From Zavarzinia marina (lineage in GTDB: Bacteria; Pseudomonadota; Alphaproteobacteria; Zavarziniales; Zavarziniaceae): a stretch of DNA of 64,000 nucleotides. The DNA is taken from assembly GCF_021568905.1 (NCBI RefSeq), contig NZ_JAKGSB010000005.1, positions 124,001 to 188,000 of the forward strand, given 5' to 3'. Shown here piece by piece: positions 17,238-28,016 of this stretch. Within the stretch, counting starts at the first letter, position 1. Every line of letters starts with the position of its first letter. Position numbers and translations under genes: made by a program. Below the pieces are notes generated by a model, which worked only from the letters and a program-made list of their open reading frames with translations, made no database searches and was not told where the DNA came from.

Positions 17238-17253
17238 TGTTTCACGTGAAACA
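17238..17253. promoter_or_regulatory. parS centromere site 1
   Basis: TGTTTCACGTGAAACA is a perfect 16-bp palindrome and matches the ParB-binding consensus of chromosomal parABS systems. It starts immediately after the mnmE stop codon. Two identical copies occur within 2.6 kb, upstream of parA. Confidence 0.96.
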
Positions 17254-17794: not shown

Positions 17795-17810
17795 TGTTTC
17801 ACGTGAAACA
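17795..17810. promoter_or_regulatory. parS centromere site 2
   Basis: A second perfect TGTTTCACGTGAAACA lies between the 2H phosphoesterase gene and mnmG, 557 bp from site 1. Confidence 0.96.
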
Positions 17811-19720: not shown

Positions 19721-20356
19721 ATGGCCGAGCCGCGCGTCATGAGCCGCGACGCCTTCGCGGCCGAGTCCGCTGTTTCACGTGAAACATTGGCCCGCCTCGC
19801 CGCCTATGCCGCCCTGCTGATCAAGTGGCAGCCCAAGATCAATCTGGTCGGCCCCGCCACCATGGCCGATCTCTGGCGCCGCCACATGCTGGATTCCACA
19901 CAGCTCCTGCCCCTCCTGCCGGAAGTGCCCCCGGGGCGTCCCCGCCGCATCGTCGATCTCGGCTCCGGCGCCGGCTTCCCGGGTCTCGTTCTTTCCATCA
20001 TGGGGGCGGGGGAGGTCCATCTGGTCGAAAGCGACCAGCGGAAATGCGCCTTCCTGCGCGAAGCGGCGCGAATCAGCGGCGCCGACGTCACCATCCATGC
20101 CTCGCGCATCGAAACCCTGCCGCCGCTCGATGCCGACGTGATTACCGCCCGTGCCCTCGCACCCCTGGAAAAATTGCTCGCCTGGGCCGCCCCGCACCAA
20201 TCTGCCCACACGATTCACATTTTCCCCAAGGGCAAGGAGGCCGAGGCCGAATTGACCAAGGCCGCCGCAGTCTCCAAACTGGAGGTCACGCGGCACCCCA
20301 GTCGCACCGACCCCGCCGCCACCATCTTCCGGATCAGAGTGACAGACCATGACTGA
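19721..20356 (+). CDS. rsmG: 16S rRNA (guanine-527 N7)-methyltransferase RsmG (GidB)
   Basis: The 211-residue SAM-dependent enzyme methylates G527 of 16S rRNA. It has WQPKINLVGP, the Rossmann motif DLGSGAGFPGL at about residues 80-90, VESDQRKCAFLRE, and TARALAPLEKLL. A perfect parS palindrome lies inside the gene at 19771-19786 and encodes VSRET. The 3' end overlaps the parA start by 8 bases, so rsmG, parA and parB are likely co-expressed. Confidence 0.95.
   Translation: MAEPRVMSRDAFAAESAVSRETLARLAAYAALLIKWQPKINLVGPATMADLWRRHMLDSTQLLPLLPEVPPGRPRRIVDLGSGAGFPGLVLSIMGAGEVHLVESDQRKCAFLREAARISGADVTIHASRIETLPPLDADVITARALAPLEKLLAWAAPHQSAHTIHIFPKGKEAEAELTKAAAVSKLEVTRHPSRTDPAATIFRIRVTDHD
19771..19786. 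promoter_or_regulatory. parS centromere site 3, inside rsmG
   Basis: A third perfect TGTTTCACGTGAAACA lies within the rsmG coding sequence, read as VSRET in the gene's frame. It is 578 bp upstream of parA. Confidence 0.95.
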
Positions 20357-21158
20357 TGCCAGGCACGCGGACGTGCGTATCATCGCCGTCGCCAATCAGA
20401 AGGGTGGCGTGGGCAAGACCACGACGGCGATCAACCTCGGCACCGCGCTCGCCGCCGTCGGCCGCAAGGTGCTGATCCTCGACCTCGATCCCCAGGGCAA
20501 TGCCTCCACCGGCGTCGGGATCGATCGGTCCGCGCGGGACGTCACCTCCTACGACGCCCTGATGGGGGAGGCCAGCCTGGCCGAAGCCCTGGTCGACACC
20601 GCCATTCCCAATCTGGCCCTGGTGCCCTCCACCATCGATCTTTCGGGCGCCGAACTGGAACTGGTGGATCAGGAGCGCCGCGCCTTCCGGCTCAAGGATG
20701 CGCTGGCGGCACCCTCCATCGCCGGGCGCTTCCACTATGTCCTGATCGATTGCCCGCCGTCCCTGAACCTTCTGACCCTGAATGCCATGGTCGCGGCGGA
20801 TTCGGTGCTCGTGCCCCTGCAATGCGAATTCTTCGCGCTGGAGGGGTTGAGCCTCCTGCTGCGCACCATCGATCAGGTGCGCGGCGGCCTCAACCCGGAT
20901 CTGGAGATCCAGGGCGTGGTGCTCACCATGTACGACAACCGCAACAACCTGTCGGACCAGGTGGCTGCCGACGTGCGCAACTTCCTGGGCAACAAGGTCT
21001 ACAACACCGTCATCCCCCGCAATGTACGGATTTCCGAGGCGCCCAGCCACGGCCAGCCGGCCCTGGTCTACGACCACCGTTGTGCCGGCAGCCAGGCCTA
21101 TATCCGCCTCGCCAGCGAAATGCTGCGCCGGGAAGAGCCGCACGCCGGCGCCGCCTGA
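20349..21158 (+). CDS. parA: Chromosome partitioning ATPase ParA
   Basis: The 269-residue deviant Walker-type ATPase segregates the origin region with ParB. The Walker A motif is QKGGVGKTT at residues 17-25, with DLDPQGNAS and DCPPSLNLLT as the A' and B motifs. There is no N-terminal DNA-binding extension, as in chromosomal type Ib ParA. The ATG at 20349 overlaps the rsmG end. parB follows after 27 bases. Confidence 0.97.
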   Translation: MTDARHADVRIIAVANQKGGVGKTTTAINLGTALAAVGRKVLILDLDPQGNASTGVGIDRSARDVTSYDALMGEASLAEALVDTAIPNLALVPSTIDLSGAELELVDQERRAFRLKDALAAPSIAGRFHYVLIDCPPSLNLLTLNAMVAADSVLVPLQCEFFALEGLSLLLRTIDQVRGGLNPDLEIQGVVLTMYDNRNNLSDQVAADVRNFLGNKVYNTVIPRNVRISEAPSHGQPALVYDHRCAGSQAYIRLASEMLRREEPHAGAA

Positions 21159-21185
21159 CCCATTCTCTGAAGGACCGAATATTCG

Positions 21186-22085
21186 ATGGCAGACGACAGC
21201 CGCAAGAAGGGCCTGGGACGCGGCCTTTCCGCCTTGATGGGTGAAGTGCGCGAGGCCGTGACCCCGCCGCCGGGTGCGGCACCCGGCGAAAAGCCCCGGG
21301 GCCTGCGCGAACTGCCGATCGAACAGCTCCAGGCCAATCCGAACCAGCCACGCAAGCGCTTCACGCCCGAGGCCCTGGAAGACCTCGTCGCCTCGATCAA
21401 GTCCCACGGCATCCTCCAGCCGATCCTGGTGCGCCGCCTGGGCCCCGAGCGCTACGAGATCATCGCCGGCGAGCGGCGCTGGCGCGCGGCCCAGAGTGCC
21501 CGGCTCCACCAGGTGCCGGTGGTGGTCAAGGACTTCACCGACGTCGAGGTGATGGAAGTCGCCCTGGTCGAGAACATCCAGCGCGCCGACCTGACCGCGA
21601 TCGAGGAAGCCTTGGGCTATCAGCGCCTGATCGAGGATTTCGGCCATACCCAGGACGCCATCGCCCAGATCGTCGGCAAGTCGCGCAGCCATATCGCCAA
21701 TATGCTCCGCCTGCTCTCCCTGCCGGCGGCGGTGAAGGATCTGGTCGACAGGGGCGATCTCTCGGCCGGTCACGCCCGCGCCCTGATCGGTCTGGCCGAT
21801 GCCCCGGCCCTGGCCCAGCGTGCCGTCGAACAGGGCCTGACCGTGCGCCAGATGGAAGACCTGGCCAAGAAGGCCAAGAATCCCAACGCGGCGCCATCGG
21901 GCGGGCAGGGTGGCGGCGCCAAGGATGCCGACACGATGGAACTGGAAGGCAATCTCTCCGCCGCCATCGGCCTGCCGGTCGCCATCGCCCACAAGGGCGA
22001 CGCCGGCGGCAGCATCACCATCCGCTACCACACCCTCGACGAGCTGGACCGCATCTGCGGCAAGCTCAGCCGGGTGGAGGATTGA
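21186..22085 (+). CDS. parB: Chromosome partitioning protein ParB (parS-binding CTPase)
   Basis: The 299-residue protein binds parS and spreads as a CTP-dependent clamp. It begins with the KKGLGRGLSALMG motif and has a linker. The CTP-binding region follows, with NPNQPRKRF (51-59) and GERRWRAAQ (95-103). The helix-turn-helix is around 155-180 (DAIAQIVGKSRSHIANMLRL), and a C-terminal dimerisation domain closes the protein. All three parS sites visible lie upstream in this window. The final gene of the operon, it is followed by a RelBE-type pair. Confidence 0.97.
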   Translation: MADDSRKKGLGRGLSALMGEVREAVTPPPGAAPGEKPRGLRELPIEQLQANPNQPRKRFTPEALEDLVASIKSHGILQPILVRRLGPERYEIIAGERRWRAAQSARLHQVPVVVKDFTDVEVMEVALVENIQRADLTAIEEALGYQRLIEDFGHTQDAIAQIVGKSRSHIANMLRLLSLPAAVKDLVDRGDLSAGHARALIGLADAPALAQRAVEQGLTVRQMEDLAKKAKNPNAAPSGGQGGGAKDADTMELEGNLSAAIGLPVAIAHKGDAGGSITIRYHTLDELDRICGKLSRVED

Positions 22086-24816: not shown

Positions 24817-25797
24817 CTAGCCCCGGCCGAGGGCCGAGGCAACAAGCCGGGCGAGGCCGGCGATGAAGGCCGGCGCCGTACCGACCGCCGGCACGCGGAC
24901 ATAGGCGGGCACGCCCGATTCGGCCGCCAACTCGCGATATTCGATGTCGAGCTCGACCAGGGTTTCGGAATGTTCCGAGACGAAGGCGACGGGCACCACC
25001 ACCAGGGCCTTGCCCTCGGTCCCGGCGCGGCGGATCTCCGCCTCGGTATAGGGCTTGATCCATTCGAGGGGGCCGACCCGGCTCTGATAGGAGACCAGCC
25101 AGTCCAGCCCCGGCCGGTTCAGGGCCGCGACCACCGCCGCCGCCGTCTCCTCGATCTGCTTCTGATAGGGATCGCCCGCATCGATCACTTTCTGCGGCAG
25201 GCCATGGGCCGAGAACAGCAGGCGCACCGGACCGTCGCCCGCCCGATCGAGAGCCTCCGCGATCAAGAGCGCCTGGGCCTGCACGAAGCCGGGTTCCGTC
25301 GGATAGCTCTCGATCGTCCCGGTCCGTGCCGTGATCCCGGCCTTGGCCGCCGCCTCGCCCCATTCCTTGAGGGAGGACGCCGTGGTGGTGGTCGAGAACT
25401 GGGGATAGAGCGGCAGCAGCACCACATGCGCCGGCGCGAAATCCGCCACCGCCCGCGCCGTATCCGCCGCGCGCGGATGCCAATAGCGCATGGCGATGAA
25501 GACCTTCACCTCGTAGCCGAGGTCCAGGCCCTCGAGGGCCGCGGTCAGGGCCGCCGCCTGTTCTTCCGTCTCCGGCACGATCGGCGAGCGCCCGCCCATG
25601 AGGGCATAGATCTCGCCCGCCGGCTTGGCCCGCCGGCCCGAAATCAGCTTCGCCACCAGATAGCGCAGCGGCTGGGGCAGGCGGATGATCGCCGGATCGG
25701 AGAACAGGTTGTACAGGAAGGGCTTCACCGCCGCCGGCGAATCCGGCCCGCCCAGATTGAACAGGACGACGGCGAGACGGCCGCTCACGGCCGCCAC
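24817..25797 (-). CDS. hemH: Ferrochelatase
   Basis: The 326-residue enzyme inserts iron into protoporphyrin IX. It has the LFNLGGPDSPAAVKPFLYNLF opening, PLYPQFSTTT, LLFSAHGLPQKVIDAGDPY with the active-site His, and VVPVAFVSEHSETLVELDIEY. Its start overlaps the end of hemE by 13 bases, so hemE, hemH and hemJ form one leftward haem operon. Confidence 0.96.
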   Translation of the reverse strand: MAAVSGRLAVVLFNLGGPDSPAAVKPFLYNLFSDPAIIRLPQPLRYLVAKLISGRRAKPAGEIYALMGGRSPIVPETEEQAAALTAALEGLDLGYEVKVFIAMRYWHPRAADTARAVADFAPAHVVLLPLYPQFSTTTTASSLKEWGEAAAKAGITARTGTIESYPTEPGFVQAQALLIAEALDRAGDGPVRLLFSAHGLPQKVIDAGDPYQKQIEETAAAVVAALNRPGLDWLVSYQSRVGPLEWIKPYTEAEIRRAGTEGKALVVVPVAFVSEHSETLVELDIEYRELAAESGVPAYVRVPAVGTAPAFIAGLARLVASALGRG

Positions 25798-26849
25798 TCC
25801 CGGATCTGTCTCGACAGCGCCGCCACATGTTCGGGCGGCGTTTCCGGCACCACGCCGTGGCCGAGGTTGAAGACGAAGCGATCGGGCCCCAGGGTCTTCA
25901 GGATCGTCTCCACGCGGTCGTGCATGGCCTTGCCGCCCGCGACCACCAGCAGGGGATCCAGATTGCCCTGAACGACGGCGCCGGGCTGCACTTCATCGCG
26001 GACGAAGGACAGCGGCACGGCACTGTCGATGCCCACCGCCTCCACCCCCGTCCGGGGCGCCAGCTGGGGCAGGGCGGGGCCGATCCCCTTCGCGAAGCCG
26101 ATCACCGGGACATGGGGGAAACGTGCCCTCAGCGCCGCCCGGATGCGGGCTATGGGCTCGAACACCCAGCGCGTCAATTCCGTCTCGGGCAGGGAACCTG
26201 CCCAGGTGTCGAAGATCTGCAGCGCCTCGGCACCGGCTTCGACCTGGGCGGCGAGATAGTCGATGGTCGCTTCCGTGATCAGGTCGATCAGGGCCTGGAA
26301 GCCATCGGGATCGCGATAGGCCCAGAGCCGGGCCGGCTTCTGCTCCGGCGTGCCCTGGCCCGCGACCATATAGGTGGCGACCGTCCAGGGCGCGCCGGCA
26401 AAGCCGATCAGGGCGACATCGCCGGGCAGGCGCTTCGAAAGCAGGCGGACCGTCTCATAGACCGCGCCGACCCGATCGTGAAACCCTTCCATGGAGAGGG
26501 CGGCAATGCCGGTCTCGGTCGTCACCGGATCGAGGCGCGGACCCTCGCCCTCGACGAAACGCACGCCCTGACCCAGGCCGTGGGGCACGATCAGGATATC
26601 GGAGAAGAGGATCGCCGCATCCATGCCGAAACGCTCGATCGGCTGCAGGGTGACGGCGCAGGCCTTCTCGCTGTCGAGGCAGAAGGAGACGAAATCCCGG
26701 GTCGTCGCCCGGACCGCGCGATATTCCGGCAGATAGCGCCCGGCCTGACGCATGATCCAGAACGGCGGCCTGTCGACGGGTGCGCCGGCTAGGGCCTTCA
26801 GGAAGCGCTTTTCACTTACCGACAGGGGCTCGGCCAATTTCATATCCAT
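25785..26849 (-). CDS. hemE: Uroporphyrinogen decarboxylase
   Basis: The 354-residue enzyme converts uroporphyrinogen III to coproporphyrinogen III. It has the signature PPFWIMRQAGRYLPEYR, AILFSDILIVPHGLG, GFAGAPWTVATYMV, FDTWAG and NLGHGVVPET. The start is either ATG 26849 or ATG 26843 two codons later; both lie in AT-rich DNA with no clear ribosome binding site. The gene opens the leftward haem operon and directly borders the origin region. Confidence 0.96.
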   Translation of the reverse strand: MDMKLAEPLSVSEKRFLKALAGAPVDRPPFWIMRQAGRYLPEYRAVRATTRDFVSFCLDSEKACAVTLQPIERFGMDAAILFSDILIVPHGLGQGVRFVEGEGPRLDPVTTETGIAALSMEGFHDRVGAVYETVRLLSKRLPGDVALIGFAGAPWTVATYMVAGQGTPEQKPARLWAYRDPDGFQALIDLITEATIDYLAAQVEAGAEALQIFDTWAGSLPETELTRWVFEPIARIRAALRARFPHVPVIGFAKGIGPALPQLAPRTGVEAVGIDSAVPLSFVRDEVQPGAVVQGNLDPLLVVAGGKAMHDRVETILKTLGPDRFVFNLGHGVVPETPPEHVAALSRQIREWRP

Positions 26850-27195
26850 ATATAAAAAGATAGTGGTTGATGGTTGATGCCTGTGGATGACGGGGGTTTC
26901 CGGTGGTGCACGGGTTTTTCCCCAGATCCAGGCCGAACCGGCGGTGTCGCTCCTTCACTAGTGGTTAAACGCCCCGAAGTCGAGTGTTGGACGGCGGCGC
27001 GGTTCCGGGGATTATGGGGATAACGGCGGGCGGGCGCGCCCACGTTATCGGATGCGGAACCCATGCCCACAGGCTGGCGACAAATCCTTCCTCAAGGGGG
27101 TTTTCAGTTGATCGAGAAGATCGTCGAAACCGTGAACGCGGCGGCGCTCGCCGAAGAGGGCGAGTCGCCCACCCAATCCCCGCTATCCACAGCGG
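26834..27195. other. Candidate chromosomal replication origin (oriC)
   Basis: The gap between hemE (leftward) and the dikinase regulator (rightward) is the oriC position known for Caulobacter and Rickettsia (RP001-hemE-hemH-RP883). It holds an AT-rich stretch at about 26834-26880 (melting region). Three 8-of-9 matches to the DnaA box TTATCCACA follow: 26882-26890 (minus), 27015-27023 (minus) and 27183-27191 (plus, in the regulator gene). Perfect boxes are absent and no clear CtrA pair (TTAA-N7-TTAA) is seen; one TTAA half-site lies at 26965. The parS sites are 7-9 kb away. Exact limits are inferred. Confidence 0.68.
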
Positions 27196-28016
27196 AGGGG
27201 GTGAAGCGCCTGCACCTCTATCTGATCTCGGACGCGACCGGCGAGACCCTGAGTTCCGTCGCCAAGGCGGCGATGTCGCAATTCCCCGATGTCGCGGCCA
27301 TGCTGCATGTCAGCTTCATGGTGCGCACCCGCAACCAGATCGAACGCGCCCTCGACATGGCGTCCTCGACCGGCGGCATCATCCTCTACACCCTGGTGAA
27401 CACGGACCTGCGCCTGGCGGTCGACGAGGGTGCCCTCGCCCGTCAGGTGCCGGTCATCAATGTTCTCGATCCCGTGATCCAGAGTCTCGCGACCTATCTC
27501 GGCACGCCCGCCAGTGCCCTGCCCGGGCGCCAGCATGCCCTCGATGCCGAATACTTCCGCCGGATCGAGGCGATGAACTACACGCTCGCCCATGATGACG
27601 GCCAGAACCCCCAGGGCCTCCACGAGGCCGATGTCATCCTCGTCGGCGTCTCCCGCACCTCGAAGACGCCGACGGCGGTCTATCTCGCCAATCGCGGCAT
27701 CAAGGCGGCGAATATCCCGGTGGTGCCGGGCGTGCCGCTGCCGCCCGAATTGTTCCAGGCGACGGAGCCGCTGGTGGTCGGCCTGACCACGGCGCCCGAT
27801 CGCCTGGTGCAGATCCGCCGCCACCGCATGATCCTGCTCGGCCAGAACAGCGACACGGATTATGTCGACATCGACGCGATCGGCCAGGAACTGACCGATG
27901 CCCGCCGTCTCTTCGTCAAGCATGGCTGGCCGGTGATCGACGTCTCGCGCCGCTCGATCGAGGAGACGTCGGCCGCGATCCTCAATCTCTACTACGACCG
28001 GCTGAATCTGATGTAG
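27108..28016 (+). CDS. Pyruvate phosphate dikinase / PEP synthase regulatory protein (kinase-phosphorylase)
   Basis: The roughly 302-residue bifunctional protein phosphorylates and dephosphorylates PPDK or PEP synthase. It has LYLISDATGETLSSV, VDEGALARQVPVINVLDP, a P-loop-like GVSRTSKTPTAVYLANRG (about residue 180) and NIPVVPGVPLPPELF. A TTG at 27108, 7 bases after AAGGGGG (27094-27100), is the best start. ATG 27063 lacks a site, and GTG 27201 has a purine run with no spacing. This is the RP001 homologue beside oriC. Which dikinase it regulates cannot be told. Confidence 0.9.
   Translation: MIEKIVETVNAAALAEEGESPTQSPLSTAEGVKRLHLYLISDATGETLSSVAKAAMSQFPDVAAMLHVSFMVRTRNQIERALDMASSTGGIILYTLVNTDLRLAVDEGALARQVPVINVLDPVIQSLATYLGTPASALPGRQHALDAEYFRRIEAMNYTLAHDDGQNPQGLHEADVILVGVSRTSKTPTAVYLANRGIKAANIPVVPGVPLPPELFQATEPLVVGLTTAPDRLVQIRRHRMILLGQNSDTDYVDIDAIGQELTDARRLFVKHGWPVIDVSRRSIEETSAAILNLYYDRLNLM

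Follow-up and report, generated by a model that had tools for sequence, protein, structure and literature searches.

The short gap between the divergent genes hemE and ppsR raises the question of whether a Zavarzinia-like bacterium begins to replicate its chromosome there. We analyzed the window, the whole stretch of 64,000 bp formed by bases 124,001-188,000 of contig C13 (344,026 bp), from a genome of 3.95 Mb in 17 contigs; literature searches returned no paper that by its title concerns a Zavarzinia origin. From sequence comparison, we conclude with high confidence that the chromosomal oriC comprises the hemE-ppsR gap and the first ~85 bases of ppsR. The original prediction had also placed oriC within the window, and its placement in the gap is now supported by synteny, by the density of DnaA boxes against controls, by conservation of the box set, by the position of parS and by a skew break in one congener; the reading as a whole depends on the sum of synteny, box number, wide conservation, an AT-rich/triplet module and parS. 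The origin is very probably a well supported but ordinary one, sitting where Caulobacter and Rickettsia predict it.

The hemE-ppsR gap lies within an origin gene cluster

From left to right, the genes are mnmE, a LigT-like phosphoesterase gene, mnmG, rsmG, parA and parB, then rho, hemJ, hemH and hemE on the minus strand, and then the gap; to its right follow ppsR (RP001), maf, aroE, coaE, dnaQ, secB (minus strand), timA and mltA. This neighbourhood is the alphaproteobacterial origin gene cluster (par/gid/rho-hem plus maf-aroE-coaE-dnaQ), and inside it a gap separates a divergent pair of hemE and a COG1806/RP001 gene, the arrangement by which alphaproteobacterial hemE-RP001 origins are recognized. 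The main genes and sites are as follows.

17238-17253, no strand assigned: parS site, exact TGTTTCACGTGAAACA
17795-17810, no strand assigned: parS site, exact TGTTTCACGTGAAACA
19771-19786, no strand assigned: parS site, exact TGTTTCACGTGAAACA
20349-22085, plus strand: parA and parB (PF13614; PF02195/PF17762)
24817-25797, minus strand: hemH (PF00762)
25785-26849, minus strand: hemE, uroporphyrinogen decarboxylase, the left boundary gene (PF01208, E 3.9e-114; TIGR01464 above cut-off)
27108-28016, plus strand: ppsR, RP001-type pyruvate,phosphate dikinase regulator (kinase-PPPase), the right boundary gene, with a probable TTG start placed from frame and Shine-Dalgarno conservation (PF03618, E 3.7e-94; NF003742)

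The divergent hemE and RP001-type genes proposed earlier were borne out by TIGR01464 and PF03618/NF003742. The closest hemE genes among named relatives, at 82-86% identity, belong to Zavarzinia aquatilis and to Zavarzinia metagenome-assembled genomes, which puts the bacterium in or near this genus. The proposed order of RP001, hemE, hemH and RP883 held for hemH and for a UPF0093/HemJ gene beside it, which we take to be RP883.

Even with two mismatches allowed, the genome has no parS site besides the three exact ones, all of which lie 7-10 kb from the gap, in agreement with the claim that a parS cluster 7-9 kb away fits an oriC. Exact parS sites also occur 6-10 kb from hemE in the congeners G003 and G004, within the stretches fetched. 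In Caulobacter, parAB likewise lie near the origin, Cori.

The prediction had further held that this gene order surrounds the origins of Caulobacter and Rickettsia, and the excerpted text of PMC1914354 does place both in the hemE-COG1806 gap, giving Cori five DnaA boxes, a 40-bp AT-rich region and five CtrA sites. The boxes of Cori are named as two G-boxes and five W-boxes in an excerpt of PMC10797057. The Zavarzinia locus is like Caulobacter crescentus Cori (hemE-CC0001/COG1806) in its boundary genes, weak DnaA boxes, AT-rich stretch and nearby parAB, and like Rickettsia prowazekii oriC (hemE-RP001) in its boundary genes; the Rickettsia gap is 82% AT according to the same excerpt of PMC1914354, whereas the Zavarzinia gap, a short stretch excepted, is rich in GC.

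Extent of the gap and the probable start of ppsR

The right edge of the gap depends on where ppsR begins. An open reading frame finder starts the gene at 27063, with the Pfam match running from residue 52; the conserved frame points to a start at TTG 27108. All six genus genomes have a Shine-Dalgarno-like motif, AAGGG or in one case CAGGG, aligned ahead of this position; the aligned start codon is TTG (GTG in G004), and the 32 codons from 27108 stay open and ungapped up to the RLHLYL core. The downstream GTG 27201 aligns with a start codon in two of the six genomes and with other codons in the remaining four. Differences between genomes fall evenly on the codon positions of this extension (170/169/183), so its coding status is drawn from the kept frame, the Shine-Dalgarno/TTG pair and the lack of another start. 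With ppsR probably starting at TTG 27108, the gap proper would span ~26850-27107, or ~258 bp, and the rightmost of the DnaA boxes described below probably lies inside the ppsR coding sequence.

DnaA boxes in the gap

The interval 26834-27195 contains exactly three one-mismatch (8/9) matches to the consensus DnaA box TTATCCACA, and the motif scan thus reproduced the three matches first noticed in it. Comparison with relatives added two further positions.

26882-26890, minus strand: DnaA box I, TCATCCACA, 8/9 match (TGATCCACA in three congeners)
26916-26924, plus strand: box II, weak DnaA-box-like TTTTCCCCA, 7/9 match
27015-27023, minus strand: DnaA box III, TTATCCCCA, 8/9 match (GGGGATAA or GTGGATAA in all seven family genomes)
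27063-27071, plus strand: box IV, decayed here (ATGCCCACA, three mismatches; CTGTCCACA in five of the seven family genomes)
27183-27191, plus strand: DnaA box V, CTATCCACA, 8/9 match, probably in the 5' coding region of ppsR (codons Leu-Ser-Thr; present in all seven genomes with 0-2 mismatches)

The form of box I found in three congeners, TGATCCACA, is presumably the Cori G-box sequence. Contig C13 has only 16 matches to TTATCCACA at one mismatch or fewer over its 344,026 bp. Among 6,874 windows, each 362 bp long, a single one has three or more of them, the hemE-ppsR interval. When two mismatches were allowed, the fullest windows were again here, with seven boxes (starts C13:150681-150741). 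None of the three exact copies of TTATCCACA in the genome is within the interval. The consensus is rare in general, with these three copies in 3.95 Mb against 11 for a reversed control pattern.

One of the exact copies lies 1.4 kb upstream of dnaA, and origins linked to dnaA are common in other phyla, which together would point to an origin beside that gene. The dnaA region, on another contig, holds just two scattered boxes (one mismatch or fewer) in 4,494 bp, and we consider an origin there extremely improbable.

Conservation of the boxes in the genus and the class

We compared the gap in a family alignment of seven genomes, six of them from the genus. Among the six genus genomes, seven of nine columns are invariant in each of boxes I, II and III, six of nine in box V and 14/16 in a 16-mer described below, compared with 48/206 in the rest of the gap. 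Each box in the window is individually weak, as had been noted at the outset; the relatives carry closer or equally placed boxes, which answers this concern.

A wider class set comprised 71 loci with a hemE relative. A ppsR signature was found within 700 bp upstream of hemE in 49 of them, at 1.6-1.75 kb in five and at 3.4 kb in one; the DNA examined for the other 16 loci contained none, and seven of these belong by title to Verrucomicrobia, Opitutales or Bacteroidota, while one of the 16, L109, spans just 268 bp upstream. The 49 gaps contain 134 boxes (one mismatch or fewer) in 21,975 bp, compared to 149 in 812,105 bp of flank, a 33-fold difference (6.10 versus 0.18 per kb). At least three boxes occur in 24 of the 49 gaps and in one of 1,839 flank windows; seven gaps have no 8/9 box. 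Since Zavarzinia contributes three of the 49 loci, the class and family comparisons are not independent of each other. That the gap in general, and not only this copy, is a DnaA-binding region is supported most strongly by the class-wide enrichment. Comparison of the same gap in close relatives, one of the checks proposed for the locus, has thus revealed a box cluster above chance, with the set conserved and enriched over the flanks.

A box cluster need not mark an origin. Outside the window, at C13:54962-55004 (L008:14962-15004), a conserved DnaA-box pair, TTGTGGATAA and TGGGGATAA, precedes the gene of a class II ribonucleotide reductase and is kept in three congeners. Its sequence context suggests a link between DnaA and the control of dNTP supply, and for its position we read it as regulatory and rejected it as an origin candidate. 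This second cluster, at C13:54.96 kb, means that boxes by themselves prove no origin. The ribonucleotide reductase gene itself (L008:15100-18624; C13:55100-58624) has intein splicing and LAGLIDADG domain matches and appears to hold an intein.

With such a regulatory-type cluster seemingly present on the same contig, and with hemE and ppsR both starting from the gap, the gap might instead be a divergent promoter region in which DnaA acts as a transcription factor on the two genes, the origin being elsewhere. The ribonucleotide reductase cluster is, however, smaller (two boxes of 8/9 or better) and away from the par genes, while the gap boxes persist in relatives of many orders along with AT-rich DNA and triplet arrays, and in Caulobacter the homologous gap has been proven to be the origin, going by the excerpt of PMC1914354. 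We therefore hold the promoter reading to be highly improbable and retain the hemE-ppsR gap as the origin.

GC skew and KOPS-like polarity

The cumulative GC skew of C13 falls to ~150 kb and is then flat, and it is shallow overall; its lowest value in the first 300 kb is at 235 kb, 84 kb from the gap. Also on this contig, outside the window at C13:60000-80000, we observed a local skew rise, with a KOPS-like strand change near 60 kb. For the congener G003, a two-break model was fitted to 40 samples, each of 20 kb, taken across a 4.37-Mb scaffold. Its best solution has the maximum near 1.42 Mb and the minimum between the hemE sample (4,155,300-4,175,299; hemE at 4,173,245-4,174,285) and the one that follows, and none of 300 shuffles fitted as well. 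At fine scale, the local minimum of G003 is not sharp and falls at 4.094 Mb, 80 kb from hemE; the polarity of the KOPS-like GGGNAGGG has one switch at the same maximum and the other best placed ~110-200 kb from hemE. Samples of a 669-kb contig of G004 revealed no skew minimum at hemE. The skew thus supports the region in one genome, G003, without fixing the point. According to the excerpted PMC1914354, GC skew is insufficient for several alphaproteobacteria.

The skew and KOPS-like breaks being unsharp at the gap in all three genomes, one could suppose that the origin lies near the gap, closer to parS or tens of kb to the right, and that the gap is a relic. We think this very unlikely, since three 8/9 boxes within 362 bp occur nowhere else in C13 and the elements of the gap are under constraint, and we keep the origin inside the gap.

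An AT-rich stretch and a degenerate triplet array beside box I

Two further elements lie between the start of hemE and box I.

26838-26862, no strand assigned: AT-rich stretch that overlaps the start codon of hemE and is a candidate DNA unwinding element (15/25 columns invariant in the six genus genomes)
26863-26881, plus strand: T/G-rich triplet stretch, a putative degenerate DnaA-trio-like array (T(A/T)G arrays at the same place in relatives)

The AT-rich stretch noticed originally is real but short. Taken slightly past 26838-26862, its best 60 bp are 62% AT in a contig of ~67% GC, ranking 188 of 68,794 C13 windows, and the locus thereby has the AT-rich stretch expected for unwinding at an origin. 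The array in the window, GATAGTGGTTGATGGTTGATGCC, has at most three consecutive T(A/T/G)(G/A) triplets ahead of box I.

The pattern is clearer in the relatives. On the ppsR-sense strand, many of them have AT-rich DNA, GG, (TAG/TTG)n, a short spacer and TGTGGATAA in that order. Runs of at least three T(A/T)G triplets were found on the ppsR strand in 20 of the 49 gaps, on the other strand in two, and in 16 of 2,187 flank windows; for runs of at least four, the counts were 14, none and one, respectively. A box in the same orientation (two mismatches or fewer) follows within 25 nt in 16 of those 20 gaps, and the 25 nt ahead of the arrays are 64-92% AT. This strand-specific array at the AT-rich/box site matches, by its sequence, what would be expected of a DnaA-trio unwinding module. 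The order and strand of the arrays presumably agree with those of Bacillus and E. coli R1. The arrangement is like the basal unwinding system of Bacillus subtilis and others in having AT-rich DNA, triplets, a short spacer and a box in the same order, and differs from it in that the triplets of relatives mix TAG and TTG and that the window array is degenerate and fails the middle-A rule.

Excerpts of PMC8287927 and PMC10797057 describe DnaA-trios as 3'-GAT-5' repeats beside the box proximal to the unwinding element, and the published search, in the PMC8287927 excerpt, demands a middle A. We applied the strict rule, which asks for at least three NAN triplets no more than 16 nt away from a box (two mismatches or fewer); 16 of the 49 relatives' gaps conform, while the window array lacks (NAN)x3 with the middle A. 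The only paper that a literature search returned for both 'alphaproteobacteria' and 'DnaA-trio' is, by title, on Epsilonproteobacteria.

A genus-specific 16-mer and the search for CtrA and IHF sites

26954-26969, plus strand: conserved 16-mer TTCASTAGTGGYTAAA, which overlaps both a CtrA-like match (TTAA-N7-TTAA with one mismatch) and a 9-mer weakly resembling a DnaA box

The 16-mer has no other copy in the genome at up to two mismatches, and at up to three mismatches the wider gap set contains it in three Zavarzinia loci only. The overlapping CtrA-like match is the single one in the gap at one mismatch, with no exact match there, so that a Caulobacter-type array of CtrA sites is absent from it; the 344-kb contig has nine matches at one mismatch or fewer, and the genome encodes a CtrA orthologue (77% identity). 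We rejected Cori-like CtrA control of the gap on account of this single match and of the congener form, TTCA-N7-YTAA, which in four of six genomes departs more strongly from TTAA-N7-TTAA. Only two two-mismatch matches to an IHF site were found in the gap, and neither is a good site. The locus thus differs from Cori, with its five CtrA sites in the PMC1914354 excerpt.

Proposed working of the origin and its implications

Following general oriC biology, we propose that DnaA-ATP would occupy boxes I to V. On the plus strand, box I reads TGTGGATGA and the AT-rich stretch lies 5' of it; a DnaA filament would grow from box I onto the T/G-rich plus strand of 26863-26881 and melt the adjoining AT-rich stretch at 26838-26862. 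Initiation in the gap would continue with helicase loading and the departure of two forks, and ParB on the three parS sites 7-10 kb away would separate the new origins.

The analysis places an origin for a poorly studied genus and supplies targets at the level of single bases. The genus-specific 16-mer is a candidate site of lineage-specific initiation control. We consider it about evenly balanced whether two proposals hold jointly. The first is that a strand-specific T(A/T)G array, lying between the AT-rich stretch and the hemE-proximal box, is common to alphaproteobacterial hemE-ppsR origins and amounts to a DnaA-trio module that tolerates T in place of the middle A; the second is that, where Cori has its CtrA array, the Zavarzinia origin has a genome-unique 16-bp control element of its own. 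The excerpted part of PMC8287927 asks whether there are trios that deviate by lacking the middle adenine, a question on which the T(A/T)G arrays of relatives bear and which they make directly testable.
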